From NCBI RefSeq assembly GCF_000195315.1, contig NC_015389.1, positions 434,001-498,000 of the forward strand: a DNA stretch of 64,000 bases. Direction: 5' to 3'. The position numbers and the translations under genes are program-made. This document shows, in pieces, positions 18,702 through 20,443 of the stretch (positions are counted from its first letter, which is position 1; every line of letters begins with the position of its first letter). Origin of the DNA: Coriobacterium glomerans PW2. Its GTDB lineage: Bacteria > Actinomycetota > Coriobacteriia > Coriobacteriales > Coriobacteriaceae. The notes under the pieces were generated by a model, which saw nothing but the letters and a program-made list of their open reading frames with translations, ran no database searches and was not told where the DNA came from.

Positions 18702-19640
18702 CTAGCGGCTCACAACGTTGCGGATCGGCTCGCCGTGCTCGAGACGACATATGTTTTCCGCTGCGATGTCGACGACGCCATCCATGACGAGCGGGAGGTG
18801 AAATCCGCCGGCGACGTGAGGTGTGATCAAGATGTTGGGGGCGTTCCAGAGCCGATGGTCGGATGGCAGTGGCTCCGGATCGGTCACATCGAGCGCGGCG
18901 CCGCCGAGATGGGCGGACTCCAGCGCGCGGATGAGGTCGTCGTTCGCGACCAGATCGCCCCTGCCCGCGTTCGCGAACAGCGCGCCCGGTTTCATGGCTG
19001 CGAAGAAGGTCGCATCTGCGAGCCGTCGCGTCGCCTTCGAACTCGGGAGAAACGATGCGACGACATCGGCGGAACCGAGCTGCGCGAACAGCGCGTCCTG
19101 TGTGAACACGGACTCGAAGCCATCGGGCGTCTCCGCTGCGGTATGTCGCCGGATGCCCGTGGCGCGGCCGCCGAGGGCGCGCACGAGTCGGGCGAAGTGC
19201 GAACCGATATCGCCGGTGCCGAGCACCAGTGCGCGCGCCCCGCGCATCGTTGCGACCGGGCCCTCGTCGACCCATTCATGCATGCGTTGATCGTCACGGT
19301 ATTGCGGCAGTCGCTTCATCTGAGAAAGCACCATGGCGAGCGCGTGCTCCGATACCGCCTGTCCATAGGCGCCGACGGCGGTGGCGATCAACGTATCTTC
19401 ACGCAGCTGCGACGTCTCGATGTAGCGGTCGTATCCGGCGGAGCCGAGCTGGAGCAGCCTGAGGCACCGGGCATCGCTCAGCCGTTCCGGCTCGATGTTT
19501 CCGATGATGATTTCCGCAGTTGATAGGTCATTATTTGCAAGTGAATCTTCCCGCGCGTAGACAAAGCGCGCGTCCGGCGCGGCGGCTTCCAGTCGTGCCC
19601 GCTGCTCTGAATCAAGTGAAATCAGTACCAACACGTTCAT
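18702..19640 (-). CDS. D-isomer-specific 2-hydroxyacid dehydrogenase
   Basis: A 312-residue NAD(P)-dependent dehydrogenase that reduces 2-oxoacids or oxidises D-2-hydroxyacids. The nucleotide-binding domain carries GTGDIGSHFA (GxGxxG) after residue 140. The active-site residues are present: Arg in NAGRGDLV, Glu in TDPEPLP and His in ITPHVAGG. The N-terminal half is the usual lid domain (LLQLGSAGYDRY, TAVGAYGQAVSEHALAM). It resembles the phosphoglycerate dehydrogenase/glyoxylate reductase group, but the physiological substrate cannot be fixed. It is transcribed in the same direction as, and 64 bases upstream of, the phosphofructokinase gene. Confidence 0.85.
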   Translation of the reverse strand: MNVLVLISLDSEQRARLEAAAPDARFVYAREDSLANNDLSTAEIIIGNIEPERLSDARCLRLLQLGSAGYDRYIETSQLREDTLIATAVGAYGQAVSEHALAMVLSQMKRLPQYRDDQRMHEWVDEGPVATMRGARALVLGTGDIGSHFARLVRALGGRATGIRRHTAAETPDGFESVFTQDALFAQLGSADVVASFLPSSKATRRLADATFFAAMKPGALFANAGRGDLVANDDLIRALESAHLGGAALDVTDPEPLPSDHRLWNAPNILITPHVAGGFHLPLVMDGVVDIAAENICRLEHGEPIRNVVSR

Positions 19641-19809: not shown

Positions 19810-19847
19810 GAACATATGTTCGTACACGGACAGGGACGTGCTATGAT
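19810..19847 (+). promoter_or_regulatory. LexA-like box overlapping an extended -10 promoter
   Basis: The perfect palindrome GAACATATGTTC (19810-19821), followed by G, matches the Gram-positive/actinobacterial SOS box pattern GAAC-N4-GTTC. Eighteen bases on stands TGCTATGAT (19839-19847), a strong extended -10, so the box covers the -35 position. The downstream gene at 19879 would be SOS-controlled if LexA binds here. Confidence 0.55.
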
Positions 19848-19878
19848 GGGCCAGTCAATAGAACTCAAGGGGGGTCGT

Positions 19879-20226
19879 ATGCTTGATGCAAAATCCGGTA
19901 CCGTGCTGTTCCGAAGTGGACCGGACGAGGAATATCTGGTCATCGAATGCTGCGATCTCGAAGACGGTCGGATACGGATCGAGCAGAGGAGCTCAGGGGA
20001 GCTCACGCGGTGGTGCTTCGATGGGTCGCCGCATACCATCGAGATCATGATCAAGGCGAAAGGAGTGCGGCGGCTCTGCGATTACTTTGACGTCAGCTCC
20101 TCCAGGCAGGTCGTCTCGCAACTGGCAGCGACCTATGCGAGCTGCGCATGCATCGAGAAGATCTGCAGTCTGCTGGATTGGCTGAGCGTCGGCTATGTGA
20201 TGAGCGAGCAGCCGCCCAGCAGATGA
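19879..20226 (+). CDS. Hypothetical protein behind a LexA-like box
   Basis: A 115-residue soluble protein I do not recognise. The first half looks beta-rich (GTVLFRSGPDEEYLVIEC, RIRIEQRSSGELTRW). The second half is helical with four cysteines (CDYFDVSSSRQVVSQLAATY, then CACIEKICSLLDWL). No membrane segment or signal peptide. I start at the ATG at 19879 because AAGGGGGG lies just before it; upstream in-frame ATGs would place the start on or before the promoter. It is a single-gene unit between a divergent dehydrogenase gene and the tRNA-Arg. The only clue to its role is the GAAC-N4-GTTC palindrome in its promoter, which suggests DNA-damage induction. Confidence 0.7.
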   Translation: MLDAKSGTVLFRSGPDEEYLVIECCDLEDGRIRIEQRSSGELTRWCFDGSPHTIEIMIKAKGVRRLCDYFDVSSSRQVVSQLAATYASCACIEKICSLLDWLSVGYVMSEQPPSR

Positions 20227-20366: not shown

Positions 20367-20443
20367 GCGGCGTTACCTCAGCTGGATAGAGGGTCTGACT
20401 ACGAATCAGAACGTCATAGGTTCGAATCCTATACGCCGCACCA
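20367..20443 (+). tRNA. tRNA-Arg (anticodon ACG)
   Basis: A full cloverleaf can be drawn: acceptor arms GCGGCGT/ACGCCGC, a D-arm with AGCTGGATAGAG, an anticodon loop CTACGAA with anticodon ACG, and the T-arm GTTCGAATC. The discriminator A is followed by an encoded CCA. A34 would be converted to inosine to read CGU, CGC and CGA. Confidence 0.95.

Follow-up and report, generated by a model that had tools for sequence, protein, structure and literature searches.

A gene at positions 19879–20226 on the plus strand of the stretch of DNA that we analysed, which we call gene X, is very probably a member of the SOS regulon of Coriobacterium glomerans PW2, with its repression and its induction both predicted. 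We are equally confident, from sequence comparison, that it is a core LexA-controlled gene of the family Coriobacteriaceae and of a second family in the order Coriobacteriales. The stretch analysed (the window) is 64,000 nucleotides long and corresponds to positions 434001–498000 of a single-contig genome of 2,115,681 nt. Gene X codes for an acidic protein of 115 residues, probably a lineage-specific effector under LexA control that belongs to a protein family without a name in Pfam or NCBIfam. The account that best explains the data as a whole, and which we favour with moderate confidence, is that X is a core LexA-regulon gene whose product is a stoichiometric binder; this mode of action, taken by itself, is put forward tentatively.

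Reading the sequence directly, we found a candidate LexA (SOS) box, GAACATATGTTC, at 19810–19821 (a palindrome, with no strand assigned) and an extended -10 element, TGCTATGAT, at 19839–19847 on the plus strand. A -35 hexamer at 17-nt spacing from TGCTATGAT would reach into the right end of the box, and this reading confirms the claim of an earlier note on this DNA that a LexA-like box overlaps the -35 region of an extended -10 promoter. The gene also has the ribosome binding site of its own that the note described: the Shine-Dalgarno sequence AAGGGGGG at 19867–19874 (plus strand) ends four bases ahead of the ATG at 19879, and the reading frame closes with a TGA that ends at 20226. Longer in-frame versions could begin at ATG codons at 19816, 19843 or 19846, but we took 19879 as the start because the Shine-Dalgarno sequence precedes it and the homologues begin at the corresponding place. 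Besides the open reading frame itself, the homologues, a structural model and dN/dS values bear on X as a gene. The next feature on its 3' side is a tRNA-Arg (ACG) gene found by tRNA scan at 20367–20443 on the plus strand, which supports the description of X as a single-gene unit, and its upstream neighbor in the list of open reading frames is divergent (18702–19640, minus strand), with a translation that reads as a D-2-hydroxyacid dehydrogenase. A tRNA-Arg (ACG) gene lies near X in 20 of 25 homologue loci scanned, and the order serS–X–tRNA-Arg was seen in several loci of both families; serS is not adjacent to X in C. glomerans itself.

The box upstream of X is of the same GAAC-N4-GTTC type as those that C. 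glomerans has at lexA and recA, with which the earlier note had suggested comparing it. Upstream of lexA there are two perfect boxes, GAACGAATGTTC and GAACAGTTGTTC, and a third copy with one mismatch, while recA has one box (GAACAGCTGTTC, 41 nt before its start). A further box, GAACATCTGTTC, lies about 48 nt before a gene that we named ruvC from our reading of the locus, and the arrangement recurs in two relatives, where RuvC was confirmed by Pfam. The exact sequence GAACATATGTTC occurs three times in the genome: before X, before polY (Pfam IMS), and upstream of rpoB. In all of 30 chosen genomes of the order we found a box with at most one mismatch upstream of lexA, a count made without a control pattern; perfect boxes were present in 14 of the 30 (8/8 Coriobacteriaceae, 6/6 members of family f2, and 0/16 members of the second X-containing family). 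This type of box agrees with the LexA motif of Streptomyces venezuelae, given as tCGAAC-N4-GNNCGa in the part of PMC9380542 available to us. The 2.12-Mb genome contains 27 perfect palindromes, and most of them fall within coding sequence and are probably not operators. We also observed fewer perfect copies of GAACNNNNGTTC than of the reversed pattern, both here (27 versus 48) and in two other genomes (26 versus 94 in G037, and 21 versus 79 in G042), possibly through avoidance of stray LexA sites.

Homologs of X were found mainly in two families. By searching with the single protein, we obtained matches in 55 of 98 genomes, which comprised 55 of the 59 Coriobacteriaceae (C. glomerans included) and none of the 39 genomes from other families. 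A profile built from 12 Coriobacteriaceae sequences matched 68 of 396 genomes of the class, adding to 58 Coriobacteriaceae ten members of the second family, which is probably Atopobiaceae. The two groups of proteins are homologous to each other (hhalign probability 98.8, E = 1.3e-16 over 111 columns), and a profile of 27 sequences from both matched 169 of 395 genomes of the order: 60 Coriobacteriaceae, 108 of the second family, and a single member of family f10 (G074, E = 8.8e-5). Five Coriobacteriaceae genomes are listed without a match, so X is present in 60 of 65. In a sample of the phylum the X profile matched 20 of 396 genomes, 13 of them Coriobacteriaceae and 7 from the second family. 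Relatives of X at 29 named loci come from Collinsella, Enorma, Candidatus Coprousia and other Coriobacteriaceae. One genome of the second family, G240, carries two identical copies (L169 and L170) on its single contig. Among the X-less genomes tested, we found no co-loss of X with lexA or polY: LexA is kept in all 16 (5 Coriobacteriaceae and 11 of the second family), and polY in all 5 of the Coriobacteriaceae. The loss of X is thus independent of the loss of either gene, which suggests that X is dispensable and does not point to a partner or target.

The box travels with the gene. We searched up to 150 nt upstream of the chosen X start at 58 Coriobacteriaceae loci and 30 loci of the second family, and found a box with at most one mismatch at 87 of the 88. 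It is perfect in 55 of the 58 Coriobacteriaceae loci and within one mismatch in all of them; in the second family the corresponding numbers are 24 and 29 of 30. By comparison, each of six scrambled palindromes was found at no more than 5 of the 58 and 3 of the 30 loci. Many of the Coriobacteriaceae loci come from close Collinsella relatives, so these counts are not of independent events, and the second family provides the stronger test since those of its proteins that we compared are only 15–29% identical to X of C. glomerans. When 20 loci of the second family were fetched after the pattern had been fixed, all 20 had the box (18 perfect) and none had the control palindrome CAAGN4CTTG. At the named loci a box with at most one mismatch was present in 29 of 29. 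The sole failure, L090, is a divergent copy from the second family, in a genome that has another X match. Several X loci have two boxes 15–16 nt apart, and in 66 of 87 loci the best -10-like hexamer lies 9–12 or 20–22 nt after the box. Conversely, in four X-less Coriobacteriaceae genomes the tRNA-Arg region contains neither X nor, within 1.5 kb, a box even when one mismatch is allowed; in two of these, the tRNA gene comes immediately after serS. That lexA and recA have this box too, and that it is retained upstream of homologs in two families, together strongly support the earlier proposal that X is an SOS gene, as far as sequence can speak to regulation. Many of the loci L006–L034 have in addition a GTGCGGACA-like element some 15–40 nt before the LexA box.

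The protein itself changes quickly. X of C. glomerans is 33–36% identical to its homologs in three other Coriobacteriaceae genomes, while LexA is 81–86% identical in the same comparison, and the median dN/dS is 0.084 among the closer Coriobacteriaceae homologs (201 of 1653 pairs, many of them from one species cluster). Acidity is common to all the sets tested (pI 4.2–6.3, net charge -1 to -16; pI 5.0 for X of C. glomerans). The absence of a membrane segment, as stated in the earlier note, was borne out by a best 19-residue Kyte-Doolittle window of 1.21, and 61 of 63 proteins are below 1.6. Across the alignment of both families only G40 is invariant, with G30 nearly so, and no polar residue is invariant.

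Searches for a known family agreed with the earlier note, which had recognised none. The best Pfam match of the C. glomerans protein has an E-value of 0.2, NCBIfam gave no match up to E = 1, and nothing fell below E = 0.01 in Pfam, NCBIfam, PHROGs, PADLOC, phage records or the sequences of solved structures; we regard the single weak matches (DUF7700, DUF2387, DsrB, RpfC and similar) as chance. Structure prediction, another check suggested in the note, gave confident AlphaFold2 models for X and for a Collinsella homolog (pLDDT 89.2 and 90.2, pTM 0.81 and 0.82), and the two models agree on the order beta-beta-beta-alpha-beta-alpha-alpha-alpha-beta. Foldseek found no match with E ≤ 0.001 among solved or viral structures. 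Among the matches listed by VIA-align, the top results for the two models were heads of the SAS-6/XRCC4/CCDC61 type, with PUR/Whirly domains lower down, and all had Z-scores below 8, the tool's stated background, so we did not count these likenesses as evidence. On the models, the fold of X would be neither assigned nor established as new.

Our preferred account has a regulatory and a biochemical part. LexA bound to GAACATATGTTC would cover the -35 region and hold X off, and after damage RecA filaments would trigger the self-cleavage of LexA, allowing transcription to start at the gene's own promoter and translation at its own ribosome binding site. The product would then act, as we suggest more hesitantly, by binding to a protein of the damage response and adjusting it stoichiometrically rather than as an enzyme; candidate targets are the RecA filament, a repair or translesion enzyme, and RNA polymerase. 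We read X as a binder because it is acidic, soluble and fast-changing and because the two families have no invariant polar residue in common; the points that we counted were its acidity, the invariance of G40 only, the confidently predicted fold, and the low identity between species. DinI, an acidic modulator of RecA, is a small, soluble, SOS-induced alpha/beta protein that acts by binding to RecA. X would resemble DinI in being small, acidic, soluble, alpha/beta and, by prediction, SOS-induced, but it is longer and has no DinI match in Pfam. Its mode of action might be closer to that of DinI than to that of YneA. A bolder version, which we consider doubtful, takes X as the founder of a separate family of SOS effectors that was already present in the ancestor of the two Coriobacteriales families. 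Its fold would be an unrecognised one, and once DNA is damaged it would hold back or redirect RNA polymerase, RecA, or an enzyme of repair or translesion synthesis, through a mechanism not seen in other SOS regulons.

Two other roles for the product are unlikely. One is that X is an SOS inhibitor of cell division, as the earlier note suggested: made after damage, it would attach in the cytosol to FtsZ, or to some other protein of the divisome, and delay division as SulA does. SOS units that are lineage-restricted and fast-changing are typical of such inhibitors. SulA of Enterobacteria is, like X, soluble, poorly conserved and LexA-controlled (by prediction in the case of X), and the portion of PMC6851548 that we could consult describes SulA as soluble and poorly conserved outside Enterobacteriaceae; X, however, has no SulA match in Pfam up to E = 10. 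X also shares with the Gram-positive SOS division inhibitors YneA, ChiZ, SosA and DivS its small size, its restriction to a lineage and its predicted control by LexA. These proteins have one membrane segment and mostly a LysM domain, and their genes are commonly beside lexA, in a layout divergent from or adjacent to it in the YneA/ChiZ type, according to the same excerpts (PMC6851548). X, by contrast, is soluble, has no LysM domain in Pfam, and is separated from lexA by about 667 kb (positions 453879 and 1121416 of the genome).

The C. glomerans genome does have a gene of the YneA/ChiZ type beside lexA. It lies at L047:2460–2933 (minus strand) and points away from lexA, the box cluster occupying the space between them; the protein it encodes has one strong hydrophobic segment (hydropathy window 2.49) as well as a LysM domain recognised by Pfam (E = 3e-5). 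A similar gene is located beside lexA in 11 of 15 other genomes, with and without X: 6 of 6 Coriobacteriaceae (3 with X and 3 without), 5 of 7 members of the second family, and neither of 2 from family f2. The LysM domain was confirmed by Pfam in all 4 such genes tested, and the rest were judged from their sequences. This protein is likely to be the SOS division inhibitor of these bacteria, and with that role apparently filled X more likely serves another. The idea of X as a division inhibitor, disfavoured by the presence of this gene and by the lack of both a membrane segment and a LysM domain in X itself, draws some support from the second-family genome G268, where X is present but we saw no LysM gene next to lexA; the other exception in that family, G091, lacks X as well.

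The other unlikely role is that of a repair factor that binds DNA or DNA ends through a PUR/Whirly-like or XRCC4-head-like domain. The models may share with Pur-alpha/Whirly domains and with SAS-6/XRCC4 heads a strand-rich sheet with helices, and the alignments give Z = 5.1 over 94–95 residues for the SAS-6 head, 4.4 over 92 for an XRCC4-fusion head (rmsd about 4–5 for heads of these two kinds) and 4.5–4.6 over 59–62 for Borrelia Pur-alpha, with a range of 3.4–4.6 for Pur-alpha/Whirly among the matches listed. All of these are weak likenesses at background level, with low sequence identity and without a Foldseek counterpart, and the acidity of every member tested would be unusual for a DNA-binding protein.

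We think it most unlikely that X is a toxin-like SOS factor, another proposal of the earlier note, or an enzymatic one, such as a nuclease or growth inhibitor. Several residues are invariant within Coriobacteriaceae (E18, Q36, T43, C46, H52, E110 and R115) and others within the second family (D90 and D93); because each family has invariant polar residues of its own, an activity that rests on family-specific residues is conceivable. But C46 and H52 are not kept in the second family, nor D90 and D93 in Coriobacteriaceae, and PADLOC and phage records gave no match. Nor is X organized like a type II toxin-antitoxin system, since it is not a two-gene unit: a tRNA gene lies downstream and a divergent gene upstream, no antitoxin gene is beside it, and it is usually a single chromosomal gene, with one copy in 164 of the 169 matching genomes. 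The toxin idea is left unsupported by these results, and they speak neither for nor against a nuclease inhibitor, the remaining suggestion of the note. Finally, it is extremely improbable that X is not an SOS gene and its palindrome a chance occurrence or a target of some other regulator, since although the 64-kb window contains 1 such palindrome against 0.90 expected, a chance level that makes the comparison between genomes the sole basis for its significance, the box also occurs at lexA and recA and is kept upstream of X far more often than its scrambled counterparts.

We conclude that gene X, as a LexA-controlled gene whose product may be a stoichiometric binder, is probably a real, uncharacterised part of the damage response. 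A conserved operator in front of a core gene with a diverging product suggests that a branch of this response has gone unrecorded in a group with common gut bacteria among its members, and a small, foldable protein is well suited to direct tests. We found no description of the SOS regulon of Coriobacteriia in the literature searched, from which subscription journals were mostly absent, and the main text of one gut study (PMC3998124), in the form available to us, contains neither the word Collinsella nor the word hypothetical.

We also noted LexA-type boxes at several other genes. The perfect box upstream of rpoB in C. glomerans (G000:C1:1557246–1557257, L054:3001) has counterparts in its family: a perfect box lies 251–363 nt before the first conserved domain of rpoB in 12 of 12 Coriobacteriaceae (L218–L221, L223–L227, L229, L230 and L233), in 0 of 10 genomes of the second family and in 0 of 3 of family f2, and a control palindrome was found in none of the 25. 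It is possible that RNA polymerase genes are under SOS control in Coriobacteriaceae. In C. glomerans, GAACAAAAGTTC (G000:C1:336180–336191, L039:3001) is 63 nt before a gene for a PRD/PTS transcription regulator. Two genomes of the genus Collinsella (g3) have LexA boxes at genes for GyrI-like proteins (L197:1870–2505, and L206:1043–1786 on the minus strand), and boxes are also present at a gyrB/parE-like gene (L202) and at a DEAD-box helicase gene (L210). Lastly, a LexA box stands immediately before a short C. glomerans gene, L055:2001–2335, whose product has no Pfam match and presumably resembles DUF6504.
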